NCBI GenBank assembly: GCA_017538365.1
Contig: JAFYIZ010000004.1
Location: 1 to 64,000, forward strand
Length of the DNA stretch: 64,000 nucleotides
Reading direction: 5' to 3'
Source of the DNA: a bacterium
Lineage (GTDB): Bacteria > UBP6 > UBA1177
This document shows, in pieces, positions 54,486-60,673 of this stretch. Position 1 is the stretch's first letter, and each line of letters starts with the position of its first letter. A program made the position numbers and the translations under genes. The notes below the pieces were generated by a model. The model searched no databases. It saw only the letters and a program-made list of their open reading frames with translations, and was not told the DNA's origin.

Positions 54486-55094
54486 ATGGAAAGGATTTCA
54501 GTCCATCTCAACAATCCGGAAAAAAGGGCGGTAGACAAGGCTGCAGCAGTGCTCGAAAGCGGCGGGGTCGTCCTTATTCCGGGTGACACTTCATATCTTT
54601 TAGCGGTAAAAATCGGCAAAAAAAGCGCTCTCGACAAACTCAACCGAATAAAACAGAGCAAAAAAAGGAAGTTCTATTCCCTGATTTTCAAGGATCTGAG
54701 CGACATTGCACGTTATGCCGACATAGACAACCGTCATTTCAACCTGCTCAAACGCTGTCTGCCTGGCGCTTATACATTCATTCTTTCGGCAAGCCGCGAA
54801 ATTCCGAAAATCATGCTTGAAAACCGAAAGGAAATCGGAATAAGGATTCCTGAAAGCCGATTTTTGAACGATCTTGTTGAGGCAATGGGCGAACCGATTG
54901 TCGTTTCGACCGCTTCCAATGATGACGGCGAAGAGTTCTGCGATCCTGAAGAAGACAGCCCTGACTGGCTCGGATTTGTCGATCTAATGGTAGACAGCGG
55001 ATATATCGCGATGGATCTTACGACTATCGTCCAGCTTTCTGGAGACGAATACGAAATCGTGCGCGAAGGGAAAGGCAACGTTGATATTTTTTAA
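54486..55094 (+). CDS. Sua5/YciO/YrdC-family protein (threonylcarbamoyl-AMP synthase-like)
   Basis: 202 residues. Seen: 'AAAVLESGGVVLIPGDTSYLLAV', 'KRKFYSLIF' (the KRx6-9 ATP/tRNA-binding strand), 'PGAYTFILSAS', 'IGIRIPE' and 'PIVVSTASNDDGE'. This family makes threonylcarbamoyl-AMP for t6A37 of tRNA. The sequence is closest in style to the YciO branch, whose role is less certain than TsaC/Sua5. Confidence 0.85.
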   Translation: MERISVHLNNPEKRAVDKAAAVLESGGVVLIPGDTSYLLAVKIGKKSALDKLNRIKQSKKRKFYSLIFKDLSDIARYADIDNRHFNLLKRCLPGAYTFILSASREIPKIMLENRKEIGIRIPESRFLNDLVEAMGEPIVVSTASNDDGEEFCDPEEDSPDWLGFVDLMVDSGYIAMDLTTIVQLSGDEYEIVREGKGNVDIF

Positions 55095-55112: not shown

Positions 55113-56513
55113 ATGAAAAAACTCAATTTTTCAGTTCATTTTTTTCTTTATTCGCTTCTAGCCTACATTTTTTATATCGTCTATTTTGTGCTGATAAAAA
55201 AGACAGATTACTTCTTCGGACTTTACTACTTCACTCCGGCGTATATATTTGTTTTCATTAAACTTTTTTCAACAGGAATAAAAAAACTGCCGTGGGTTGC
55301 ACTTTTTGCCTTCATTCCTTTCGCGGTTTCGGTATTTCTCACTTTTGCCGATCATCCCTTCCAGGGTTGGGAAGTCTCGGGTTTTATCCCTGTCGTAATA
55401 CTCGCTTCATATCTTTTCAAAAGCTCCAAAGGCTCGCCTACCCCGCTTGGAATCAGGGTCATGCCGAAAATTATAAAGTGCTTTTTAGCTATAATTCTCA
55501 TTTTCGGGATCATCCACTTTTTCAAGACGAAATCGCTTTATGAGGCGCTTCTTCTCGTTGTTACACTCTACTCTCCCGCTCCGATTGCGGCTGCTACCGC
55601 CCTTTTCATAAACTTCATCGTTACGACGACAGCAATTTCAGTACTTCTCAACAACATGAAGTTCTTCAACAACGAGACGAAAATTTCGAGACTTGTTTTC
55701 GATACCGACAAGTATCTCAACATCCCGCACCTCAACCTTTCCGGAATCGAGACAGTTGATGATGTCAAAAAAGAGGATTTCATGCACATGATAGGCAAAC
55801 TCAATCAGGCTGCCGAAAACGACCCCGAACAGACTAAGGACATCAGCAAAAACAAATGTTTCACTCATACTTTCGATGATGGAAGAACCCTCACAATGGC
55901 GCCTCTCCATGTTCTGATTTCAGAAAAACACTGCTCGGCTGAAGGACTCTCCGTTCCTAAAAAAGAGGCTGACAGCGAACACATTGCCCTCGCCGAAGGG
56001 ACAAGAGTCATAGGCTACTACACGATTGACAAGGTAAGACCTGCCGAAAACGCAGCATTTATCGAACTTTTCAACAAAAAATTCGGGATAAAGACAGTGA
56101 TCGTGAACCCGGTGAAACCGCAGCTATGGCAGAACCTCGAGACAAAGGCATCACTTGACGAAATCGAATTCCGTAGCGATGACATACTGATTACAGAGCA
56201 GGAGCACGAAAACACTGCGGCGATCCAGGCGCTATGGGGCGGAGTTGACACCGCGAAAGGAGATGTTTTCATCACAAAACCTTTCATGAAAACACTGTTC
56301 AACTTCATCATAGTTTCGAGGCACATTCCGGAAAAAATCGTGAAAGGAGCTGCAATATGCTCGCTCCCGTTCTTTTTCCAGCTTTTTGCGATATCGTTCG
56401 GGATCGTCACACCGCAGCTCTCGTCAGTTGTAGTTTTGATGTCGTTTTTCATGACAGTCATCTACATATTCTACATCAAGCCGGTTTCAAAGAACACGCT
56501 CTCGGATAAGTGA
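55113..56513 (+). CDS. Degenerate P1B-type-ATPase-like membrane protein
   Basis: 466 residues, membrane helices at about 8-30, 35-52, 60-80, 88-104, 120-137, 143-178, and a C-terminal pair (415-460). The order and spacing of P1B metal ATPase elements are preserved but their catalytic residues are not: 'YSPAPIAAATALFINF' sits where CPCALGLATP would be, 'RLVFDTDKYLN' (D197) about 42 residues later where VVFDKTGTLT would be, 'AAENDPEQT' for the SEHP region, 'VIGYYTIDKVRPAENAAFIELFNKKFGIKTVIV' (in parts) for the hinge, and 'AIQALWGGVDTAKGDVFITKPF' for the GDGxNDAPAL region. It is shorter than real P1B ATPases (about 650-800). I infer a pseudo-ATPase; transport is unlikely. The CPBP protease gene overlaps its stop. 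Confidence 0.62.
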   Translation: MKKLNFSVHFFLYSLLAYIFYIVYFVLIKKTDYFFGLYYFTPAYIFVFIKLFSTGIKKLPWVALFAFIPFAVSVFLTFADHPFQGWEVSGFIPVVILASYLFKSSKGSPTPLGIRVMPKIIKCFLAIILIFGIIHFFKTKSLYEALLLVVTLYSPAPIAAATALFINFIVTTTAISVLLNNMKFFNNETKISRLVFDTDKYLNIPHLNLSGIETVDDVKKEDFMHMIGKLNQAAENDPEQTKDISKNKCFTHTFDDGRTLTMAPLHVLISEKHCSAEGLSVPKKEADSEHIALAEGTRVIGYYTIDKVRPAENAAFIELFNKKFGIKTVIVNPVKPQLWQNLETKASLDEIEFRSDDILITEQEHENTAAIQALWGGVDTAKGDVFITKPFMKTLFNFIIVSRHIPEKIVKGAAICSLPFFFQLFAISFGIVTPQLSSVVVLMSFFMTVIYIFYIKPVSKNTLSDK

Positions 56514-57154
56514 TGGAAGAGAAAAAATATTCGAAATTCATTGTTCCGTTTCTGCTTCTCGCAGCGATATCGGTTCTCTCGTTTTTTATGAACAAATACC
56601 GCTTTTCTGCAAGACATTTTATATTTCCGGCGGCGCTTTTCATCCTTCCGCTCCTCTGCGACAAGACTTTCAGGCCGAAAAAGCTGTTCATCCCCTCAAG
56701 AGAAGGTCTGAAACTCTTTTTGTGGGTGACAGTTGCGACACTAGTGCTTTATCCGCCGCTATTTTTTGCATACAATCTCGGCTTCATACACCGTGCGCTC
56801 GCAACACCGACGACTAATGAACTGATGAAGGCAGTCACAAAAGGGCTTATCGCCATCGCAGTTGCGGCGATTCCCGAAGAATTTTTTTTCCGCGGATATA
56901 TTCAGGAGCACGTTTTTTCCCATTTCGATAAAAAAATTCTGAAGATAGTTTCGCTCAAAAACCTTTTTACGTCGCTTCTTTTCGGGCTTGTCCACGCATT
57001 GGCATTCCTTGACATAACGAGAGCGGCGACATTCTTTCCCTCACTTCTGTTCGGACTTTTCACCGAAAAAAGCAGAGGAAGAATCTTTTACAGCATCTCA
57101 TACCACGTCGTTTCCAACATTCTGGCATTTATTCTTTGGACATTCATAAAATAA
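56513..57154 (+). CDS. CPBP-family intramembrane glutamic protease
   Basis: 213 residues, about seven to eight membrane segments. Catalytic motifs: 'IPEEFFFRGYIQ' (EExxxR), 'FGLVHALAF' (FxxxH) and a later His in 'SYHVVSNI'. The family includes Rce1-like and bacterial enzymes linked to C-terminal sorting in some lineages. Start is ATG at 56513 sharing one base with the upstream stop; GTG at 56510 is possible. Coupling with the pseudo-ATPase gene suggests that the two proteins act together or are regulated together. Confidence 0.88.
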   Translation: MEEKKYSKFIVPFLLLAAISVLSFFMNKYRFSARHFIFPAALFILPLLCDKTFRPKKLFIPSREGLKLFLWVTVATLVLYPPLFFAYNLGFIHRALATPTTNELMKAVTKGLIAIAVAAIPEEFFFRGYIQEHVFSHFDKKILKIVSLKNLFTSLLFGLVHALAFLDITRAATFFPSLLFGLFTEKSRGRIFYSISYHVVSNILAFILWTFIK

Positions 57155-58493: not shown

Positions 58494-59072
58494 ATGGCAA
58501 AATCAATTAAAGGAACAAGAACGGAAAAGAATCTTCTCACCTCTTTCGCAGGCGAATCCCAGGCAAGAATGCGCTACAACTACTTTGCAAGCAAGGCTAA
58601 AAAAGAAGGCTTTGAAAAAGTAGCTGTTATTTTTGAAGAAACTGCAAATCAGGAAAAGGAACACGCAAAGAGAATGTTCAAATTCCTTGAAGGCGGAAAC
58701 ACTGAGATCACCGCTACATATCCGGCTGGAATGATCTCCGACACCCTTGCAAACCTCAAGGCTGCTGCTGCAGGCGAGCACGAAGAGTGGACTGAAGCAT
58801 ACCCCGAATTCGCAAGAATCGCTGACGAAGAAGGATTCGCTGACATCGCCGAGATGTACAGAAGAATCGCAATCGCAGAAAAACACCATGAAGAAAGATA
58901 CAATGCTTTCATAAAAGACCTTGAAAACAGCGGAATGTTCGCAAAAGACCGCGAAGTTACGTGGCGCTGCCTCAACTGCGGATACATCCATGTCGGCAAA
59001 GAAGCTCCAGAAAAATGCCCCGCTTGCGAGCATCCTCAAGCTTACTTCGAAGTTCTCAACTCCAACTGGTAG
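58494..59072 (+). CDS. rbr: Rubrerythrin
   Basis: 192 residues. Peroxidase of anaerobes: N-terminal ferritin-like diiron domain with 'ESQARMRY', 'EETANQEKEHAKRMF' and 'IAIAEKHHEERY' (Glu/His ligands), and a C-terminal rubredoxin-like Fe site ('CLNCGYIH...CPAC', about 161-181). It reduces hydrogen peroxide with electrons passed by rubredoxin. First gene of the cluster; desulfoferrodoxin follows 9 bp later. Confidence 0.97.
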   Translation: MAKSIKGTRTEKNLLTSFAGESQARMRYNYFASKAKKEGFEKVAVIFEETANQEKEHAKRMFKFLEGGNTEITATYPAGMISDTLANLKAAAAGEHEEWTEAYPEFARIADEEGFADIAEMYRRIAIAEKHHEERYNAFIKDLENSGMFAKDREVTWRCLNCGYIHVGKEAPEKCPACEHPQAYFEVLNSNW

Positions 59073-59081
59073 GAGTCTGAA

Positions 59082-59465
59082 ATGACGAAAAGAAACGAAG
59101 TCTACAAGTGCTCCATCTGCGGAAACATCGTCACCGTCTCTCACGAAGCGGGCGGAACGCTTGTCTGCTGCGGCAAGGAGATGGATCTCATGCCGGTAAA
59201 AACTGCCGATCAGACGCTTGAAAAGCATGTTCCGGTAGTTGAAAAAACGGCTAGCGGCATCAAAGTCACGGTCGGCTCTACTCCTCATCCGATGATGGAC
59301 AACCACTACATCGAGTGGATCGAAGTGATAAACGGCGACATCGTCATGAGAAAGTATCTCAAACCGGGAGAAGCACCAACAGCAGAATTCCCGATGGAAT
59401 TTTCCGATGACATAATCGCCCGCGAATACTGCAACATCCACGGACTCTGGGCAAACAAAAAATAG
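59082..59465 (+). CDS. dfx: Desulfoferrodoxin (2Fe superoxide reductase)
   Basis: 127 residues. N-terminal desulforedoxin-like Fe(Cys)4 site ('YKCSICGNI' and 'VCCGKEMDLM') and C-terminal superoxide-reducing centre with His ligands ('EKHVPVVE', 'HPMMDNHYIEWIEV') and Cys-His at the end ('REYCNIHGLW'). Reduces superoxide to peroxide without making oxygen; the peroxide is then removed by rubrerythrin. No Lys/Glu or motif is missing. Confidence 0.97.
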   Translation: MTKRNEVYKCSICGNIVTVSHEAGGTLVCCGKEMDLMPVKTADQTLEKHVPVVEKTASGIKVTVGSTPHPMMDNHYIEWIEVINGDIVMRKYLKPGEAPTAEFPMEFSDDIIAREYCNIHGLWANKK

Positions 59466-59473
59466 GAGATGAA

Positions 59474-60673
59474 ATGTCGAATCTCAATGCAATAAAGATC
59501 AGCGAATCGGTCTACTGGGTAGGCGCGATCGACTGGAACATCCGCTATTTCCACGGATATGCGACGCTTAAGGGAACGACCTACAATGCATACCTCATCA
59601 TGGCGGATAAGATCACCCTCATCGACGGAGTAAAAAAAGGCAATGAGTGCGAACTCCTGGAAAGAGTCGCTTCAGTCGTTGATCCGCAGAAAATCGAATA
59701 CATCGTTTCCAACCACTCGGAACCGGACCACAGCGGCGGGATACCGAAAATCGCTGAAACCGTAAAACCTGAAAAGATCTTCGCTTCAAAAGGCGGCGTC
59801 CGTGCTTTGAACGCATACTACCCCAGTCTCCAGGTCGAAGCAGTTGCGGACGGAGGAGAACTAACACTTGGCAACAAAACGCTGAAATTCATGGAAACAA
59901 AGATGCTCCACTGGCCTGACAGCATGTTTTCCTATCTTGCCGAAGAAGAAGTCCTTTTCAGTCAGGACGCTTTCGGAATGCACCTTGCATCAAGCGAGCG
60001 TTTCGATGACGAGCTTCCGTGGTCACTTCTGCAGGAAATGTCGACAGGTTACTACGCGAACATCATAACGCTCTACAGCCCTTTCGTGCAGAATCTGCTC
60101 AAAAAAGTGGCTGCAAGCGGACTTACTTTCAAAGTAGTCGCCCCCGACCACGGTCCGGTTTGGAGAAACATGGATAACTTCTCGAAAATGCTCGGCCTTT
60201 ACGACAAATGGTCTGCGAGAAAAACTGACAAAAAAGCGGTCATCGTCTACGATTCGATGTGGCATTCGACTGAAAAAATGGCGAGATATATTGAAGACGG
60301 CCTTGCATCTCAGGGAATCAAAGTCAAATCGCTTTTCATGCAGTCTTCAGACAGAAGCGAAGTCGCGGCGGAACTTCTTGACGCATCGGCCCTCATCGTC
60401 GGTTCGCCCACGATAAACAACGAGCTTTTCCCCTCAGTCGCAGACGTTATGTGCTACCTCAAAGGGCTTAAATTCAAAACTCCGTTTGCAGCCTCCTTCG
60501 GCTCTTACGGCTGGAGCGGCGAAAGCATCAAAAATCTCACACAGATGCTCACAGAGATGTGCGGCGAAGTAGTCGGAAGCGTAAAAGCGCTCTATACTCC
60601 GACAGAAGAAGTCAAAACACAGTGCTTCGAACTCGGCAGAGAGATCGGAGAAAAAATCAACAATAAAAATTAG
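59474..60673 (+). CDS. Flavodiiron protein (A-type, oxygen/NO reductase)
   Basis: 399 residues. Metallo-beta-lactamase-like diiron domain with 'SNHSEPDHSGG' (H81, E83, D85, H86), 'LHWPDSMFSY', 'DAFGMH' and 'VAPDHGPVW', then a flavodoxin domain from about residue 255 ('AVIVYDSMWHSTEKMA', 'IVGSPTINNELFP'). Class A members reduce oxygen to water or NO to N2O using rubredoxin, encoded next door. Confidence 0.96.
   Translation: MSNLNAIKISESVYWVGAIDWNIRYFHGYATLKGTTYNAYLIMADKITLIDGVKKGNECELLERVASVVDPQKIEYIVSNHSEPDHSGGIPKIAETVKPEKIFASKGGVRALNAYYPSLQVEAVADGGELTLGNKTLKFMETKMLHWPDSMFSYLAEEEVLFSQDAFGMHLASSERFDDELPWSLLQEMSTGYYANIITLYSPFVQNLLKKVAASGLTFKVVAPDHGPVWRNMDNFSKMLGLYDKWSARKTDKKAVIVYDSMWHSTEKMARYIEDGLASQGIKVKSLFMQSSDRSEVAAELLDASALIVGSPTINNELFPSVADVMCYLKGLKFKTPFAASFGSYGWSGESIKNLTQMLTEMCGEVVGSVKALYTPTEEVKTQCFELGREIGEKINNKN

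Follow-up and report, generated by a model that had tools for sequence, protein, structure and literature searches.

A gene in the window (the whole 64,000-nucleotide stretch of DNA that we analyzed) probably encodes a pseudo-P1-type ATPase. We propose that the protein descends from a heavy-metal/potassium-type pump and serves as a non-pumping membrane scaffold or sensor. From the ancestral pump it would have retained a membrane domain of eight helices, a P domain of the HAD fold, and a reduced N domain. The A domain would have been lost entirely, and of the catalytic motifs only one aspartate would remain. A sequence-only reading of this DNA had described the open reading frame and quoted three strings from it, and all were confirmed in the translation: SPAPIAAATALF (residues 154 to 165), FDTDKYLN (residues 196 to 203, with D197), and GYYTIDKVRP (residues 301 to 310). 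The gene, its parts, and its immediate neighbors are listed in Table 1. Consensus promoter and terminator matches around the gene showed no excess over shuffled sequences.

Table 1. Positions in the window of the putative pseudo-pump gene, its parts, and its neighbors
Feature	Position	Strand	Basis or remark
Sua5/TsaC, L-threonylcarbamoyladenylate synthase	54486..55094	+	PF01300, E = 2e-38; TIGR00057 above cut-off
Putative pseudo-P1-type ATPase gene	55113..56513	+	Open reading frame and translation; 466 aa; 8 predicted TM helices; without A domain
Four N-terminal helices, residues 8-101	55134..55415	+	AlphaFold2 secondary structure and hydropathy
Loop at the A-domain/TGE place of canonical pumps, residues 102-111	55416..55445	+	Family alignment
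M3-like helix, residues 111-139	55443..55529	+	AlphaFold2 model
M4-like helix, residues 142-173, broken at SPAP (154-157, nt 55572-55583)	55536..55631	+	Model
FDTDKYLN at the DKTGTLT position, residues 196-203	55698..55721	+	Alignments
Reduced N-domain-like region, about residues 206-295	55728..55997	+	hhalign alignment; strands and helices in model
P domain second half, residues 298-384	56004..56264	+	Model, hhalign, family alignment
Hinge GYYTIDKVRP	56013-56042	+	Inside P domain second half
VIVNP at the TGD position	56097-56111	+	Inside P domain second half
DDILITEQEHENT at the GDGxND position	56178-56216	+	Inside P domain second half
C-terminal helix pair, M5-M6-like, residues 391-454	56283..56474	+	Model and hhalign
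CPBP intramembrane glutamic protease, Rce1-like, myxosortase-like	56513..57154	+	PF02517, E = 4e-13; NCBIfam Mrt below cut-off

Single-sequence comparisons gave only faint signs of a relationship to P-type ATPases. NCBIfam model TIGR01494 (HAD-IC P-type ATPase) matched residues 91 to 197 (E = 3e-4, 19.4 bits; curated cut-off, 62.3) and also matched 10 of 17 members of the protein family, and TIGR01525 scored 9.6 bits on the window protein (cut-off, 346). All NCBIfam matches of the protein fell below the curated cut-offs, Pfam gave no match, and sequence searches of the PDB returned no P-type match. Identity to canonical P-type ATPases was 13 to 16%. The low identity and the want of a significant Pfam or PDB sequence match would fit a likeness that is convergent or an artifact, with no kinship behind it, but we give that reading very little chance. 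The kinship claimed in the sequence-only reading was borne out by profile-profile comparison with hhalign. A profile of the 17 members aligned with one of canonical P-type ATPases, almost all of them encoded in the same phylum, with a score of 56.7 and a probability of 87% (E = 3.8e-6, calculated, like the other hhalign E-values, for a single pairwise comparison). Controls stayed at noise: a reversed profile gave E = 0.46, and none of 120 block-shuffled profiles scored above 25.4, far below the true profile. The soluble part alone also matched (E = 3.3e-5), and the membrane part alone gave no significant match.

Structure prediction likewise argued against convergence. AlphaFold2 models were built for the window protein (pLDDT 70.5, pTM 0.55) and for an orthologue from family f3 that is 29% identical to it (pLDDT 64.6, pTM 0.39); both used the same shallow 19-row alignment, so they are not fully independent. 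Their confidence is moderate. When the window model was searched against the PDB with Foldseek, all 32 entries at E ≤ 1e-3 were P-type ATPases, the best being ZntA (4umw, 2.2e-8). All five entries at that threshold were P-type for the f3 model too, with ZntA 4umw again at the top, and its first 17 matches were P1A or P1B pumps, followed by noise. KdpB formed the second group of fold matches (5mrw_B, 7zrd_B, and others), scoring close behind ZntA. Global TM-scores were low (0.2 to 0.4), and therefore the modeled domain arrangement is not to be trusted. Together, the profile-profile comparison, the fold search, and the motif order and spacing, which are conserved (see below), support the conclusion that the protein belongs by descent to the P-type ATPase superfamily, nearest the P1-type pumps, as a remote homologue. 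The model, of moderate confidence, and hydropathy predict four helices, followed by two (the second interrupted at SPAP), the P/N head, and a final two, with the A domain missing. The four N-terminal helices would occupy the place of MA, MB, M1, and M2 of P1B pumps. P1B is favored over P1A solely by the predicted helix order and by ZntA as the top match, so the proposed P1B-type assignment was only partly upheld, whereas a conserved, apparently non-catalytic relative of P1-type pumps was supported.

Part of the ancestral spacing is intact. The M4 proline position lies 42 residues from the P-domain aspartate position in 17/17 members, compared with 43 in 25/25 canonical pumps, and the GDGxND position lies about 109 residues from the protein end, compared with 106 to 113 in ZntA-like pumps. 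However, the claim that fold and motif spacing are kept holds only in part. The A (actuator) domain, whose absence the sequence-only reading had missed, is replaced in the alignment and the model by a loop of about 10 residues between the M2- and M3-like helices, in which a T/S-P-L motif is conserved across the family alignment. The N domain is shortened, its ATP-binding His-Pro and Gly motifs were not seen in the hhalign alignment, and the segment from TGD to GDGxND is about 20 residues short.

The catalytic residues were said to be gone, and this was correct for CPC, TGT, and GDGxND and extends to TGD. The CPC position reads [ST]PA in the family, with P155 kept in 16/17 members, and the DKTGT position reads FD[TSGP]xxx, with KTGT lost and only the aspartate, D197, kept in 16/17. 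TGD and GDGxND were lost in every member examined, where the aligned positions are VIVNP and DDILITE or variants. We saw no conserved charged, Cys, or His residues within the predicted helices, and none of the metal-binding residues of P1B pumps there. On present knowledge of the superfamily, a protein without an A domain and without phosphorylation or Mg-binding motifs is not expected to run the classical pump cycle. We infer from these losses that ATPase and pump activity are probably lacking.

D197 could instead mark a protein that is still active, either as a HAD phosphohydrolase or as a pump with unconventional residues or an A domain supplied by another protein. In f1 sequences, D199 makes a DxD pair with it. 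However, the other families do not conserve D199, the Lys motif and Mg-binding aspartates are missing, and no lender of an A domain could be found in six near-complete genomes. PF00122 had no match above chance in the pseudo-pump and within the phylum was found only in canonical pumps. Six genomes, each at least 91% complete and all with the pseudo-pump gene (G015 to G019 and G022), contained neither PF00122 nor a canonical P-type ATPase above cut-off. Therefore, within the completeness of the assemblies, an A domain from another protein is unlikely there, and a split pump with its A domain encoded elsewhere is an unlikely candidate. All in all, we consider retained activity of either kind highly improbable. 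As a separate observation, a canonical P-type ATPase was present in 14/14 control genomes and is seemingly missing from these six.

The break in the M4-like helix raises another alternative, that the protein is a passive ion conduit or an atypical transporter like ERMA/TMEM94, a eukaryotic ER Mg2+ transporter. An M4 unwound at SPAP would then form an ion site of backbone carbonyl groups, gated by the P/N head and the aspartate without the classical cycle. In the model, the M4-like helix is indeed interrupted at [ST]PA(P). Both P155 and D197 are nearly invariant, and within the genus, dN is lower in helices 1 to 6 than elsewhere in the protein. ERMA itself has an unwound TM4 with PILP, has DKQGI for DKTGT, and has no GDGVND or TGES (PMC13322241). 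Since ERMA/TMEM94 reportedly transports Mg2+ without TGES and GDGVND, motif loss alone does not prove inactivity. However, the predicted helices of the pseudo-pump offer no conserved charged, Cys, or His residue, and the A domain that ERMA keeps is absent from the whole family. We regard a conduit as rather unlikely. The near-invariance of D197 also bears on our preferred reading, because a pure scaffold has no obvious need of it, and this counts against a scaffold.

Whole-genome searches found the pseudo-pump in 25/25 genomes of its order and not in the three other genomes of the phylum. Its bearers are mostly rumen bacteria of candidate phylum UBP6, whose genus UBA1177 is a known rumen lineage (PMC7820578). 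Identity to the window protein is 74 to 92% in most of the genus, about 50% in genus members G005 and G010, 42 to 51% within the family, and 27 to 31% in two other families. Genus members G002 and G010 have only fragments of the protein, located where contigs end. A weak second match in genome G014 in these whole-genome searches is probably due to chance because the stretch overlaps an open reading frame of unrelated sequence on the opposite strand. Among 386 genomes searched, the sole match outside the order (E = 7e-4) was to a P1B-type pump of the canonical kind in another family, and this match is itself a sign of kinship between the pseudo-pump and P-type ATPases. We also scanned 84,980 genomes with a single degenerate motif around GYY. 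This returned 18 loci, all of them family members: 2 were from records naming UBP6, several from records naming ruminant hosts, and 3 under other taxon labels. Public records labeled Spirochaetales or Candidatus Sumerlaeota (L033, L037, and L038) contain the gene and cluster with the order in the genome search. Because they group with the UBP6 order, those labels may be wrong.

The gene is under strong purifying selection. Comparisons of the window gene with those of genus members gave a dN/dS of 0.07 to 0.09, compared with 0.03 to 0.13 for adjacent genes, with slower change in helices 1 to 6 than in the soluble head. Premature stops are absent from all complete members, and the few stops in the search tables fall at the C-terminal end of the match. 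Therefore, this is a maintained protein and not a decaying pseudogene. Every orthologue examined has the motif losses.

Sua5/TsaC is the most widely conserved neighbor. In the window it ends 18 bases before the pseudo-pump start, and in 16 of the 24 testable genomes it precedes the pseudo-pump gene by no more than 30 bases, on the same strand. It is 770 to 1105 bases upstream in four more, with one intervening gene in those read, and within 4 kb in another two. It was not found near the gene in the remaining two, G004 (8 kb covered) and G007 (3.6 kb covered). This synteny is suggestive of a link between Sua5/TsaC and the pseudo-pump. In several genera, the order is guaA (named by eye), a TPR protein of about 1440 residues, Sua5, and the pseudo-pump. 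The TPR protein lies just 5′ of Sua5 at L041:3060-7370, L038:3058-7368, L039:876-5174, and L044:3031-7359. In genus g6 of family f3, Sua5 and the pseudo-pump are separated by a lipoprotein-like gene, which overlaps the pseudo-pump start (L040:1200-2315 and L043:769-2013); the L040 copy has TPR repeats.

The downstream neighbor, the CPBP protease gene, had been described as overlapping the pseudo-pump gene, and the overlap is real. The start ATG at 56513 begins on the last base of the pseudo-pump TGA stop (TGATG), so that one base is shared. It had also been suggested that the protein is a partner of this intramembrane protease, for example as a subunit or regulator. The overlap would agree with that, as would the CPBP gene directly downstream in 15/15 genomes of the window's genus and the occurrence of both genes in all 25 genomes of the order. 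However, the linkage is not kept across the family. It was seen in 0/9 testable genomes outside the genus, each of which has an unlinked CPBP relative in another neighborhood, and in the three family members read outside the genus, a HIT-domain gene lies downstream instead. A CPBP match is also present in all 28 genomes of the phylum, although it is more distant in the three without the pseudo-pump. Therefore, synteny rejects a general CPBP link, and we find the role of protease subunit or regulator improbable.

Other genes were noted in the course of this comparison. CNNM, a proposed TMEM94 partner, was found in every one of the 28 genomes, also where the pseudo-pump is missing, so a link between the two is uninformative. 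NCBIfam Mrt models match the CPBP protease at E-values down to 1e-25, all below cut-off, and MYXO-CTERM-like protein tails (TIGR03901 above cut-off) occur in five f3 genomes, suggesting that protease and tails may form a sorting system. The MYXO-CTERM and Synergist-CTERM searches concerned CPBP substrates and have no bearing on the pseudo-pump. At 58494-60673 in the window, three consecutive genes have translations that by eye resemble rubrerythrin, desulfoferrodoxin, and flavodiiron protein, and they are likely an oxygen-detoxification cluster.

If the protein is a non-pumping scaffold or sensor, as we prefer, then its cytosolic P/N head, held by the membrane part, would bind a ligand or a protein partner. 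The head might relay a conformational signal to that partner or merely scaffold it. Both the role and the partner are guesses; the Sua5/TsaC product would be the first candidate and the CPBP protease the second. More tentatively still, this might be the first description of a dead P-type family without an A domain, universal in the UBP6 order, that acts either as a membrane receptor sensing a ligand or as a passive conduit and is tied to the tRNA-modification gene Sua5/TsaC. Our literature search, with subscription journals mostly outside its scope, found no bacterial family that keeps the P-type fold without an A domain.

The closest known systems are the P1B heavy-metal ATPases (ZntA/CadA and CopA; TIGR01525 and TIGR01512). 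They share with the pseudo-pump its predicted helix order, the broken M4 with its proline, the 42 to 43 residues to the P-domain aspartate, the P/N head between M4 and M5, and the C-terminal helix pair. In contrast to them, the pseudo-pump has no A domain, CPC, KTGT, TGD, GDGxND, or metal-binding residues in its helices, and its N domain is shorter. The likeness to the P1A pump KdpB consists of the second group of fold matches. However, KdpB acts as part of the KdpFABC complex and possesses the A domain and the full set of catalytic motifs, and no Kdp-like partner was seen beside the pseudo-pump gene.

Precedents for altered function come from further afield. In the HAD pseudoenzyme PcrP/PA2803, the catalytic and Mg-binding residues have been lost, and the protein persists in a protein-binding role (PMC12632274). 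It resembles the pseudo-pump in having a HAD fold with catalytic losses, but it is in the phosphonatase branch and is not a P-type ATPase relative with a membrane domain. CATP-1 of C. elegans has a complete architecture. A pump-independent role has been argued for it (Ruaud and Bessereau 2007, cited in PMC11631496), so it serves as a precedent for P-type ATPases with tasks other than pumping. It differs from the pseudo-pump in being described as a Na+/K+ pump in which the pump-impairing D409E mutation gives phenotypes.

ERMA/TMEM94, for which Mg2+ transport that requires the aspartate has been reported, has a P-type fold with degenerate motifs (DKQGI, GSSANL, and no TGES), an unwound TM4 with prolines, and a retained Asp, all of which recall the pseudo-pump (PMC13322241). 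However, ERMA/TMEM94 has 10 helices and all three of the A, P, and N domains, whereas the bacterial family has no A domain. P-type ATPases are usually treated as a superfamily of active pumps. A family fixed across an order and strongly selected would show that a pump scaffold can be retained for a non-pumping task in bacteria. It would also let the roles of the P/N head and the M4 break in the absence of phosphorylation be tested in a natural case, and it sets the degenerate eukaryotic ERMA/TMEM94 in a broader context.
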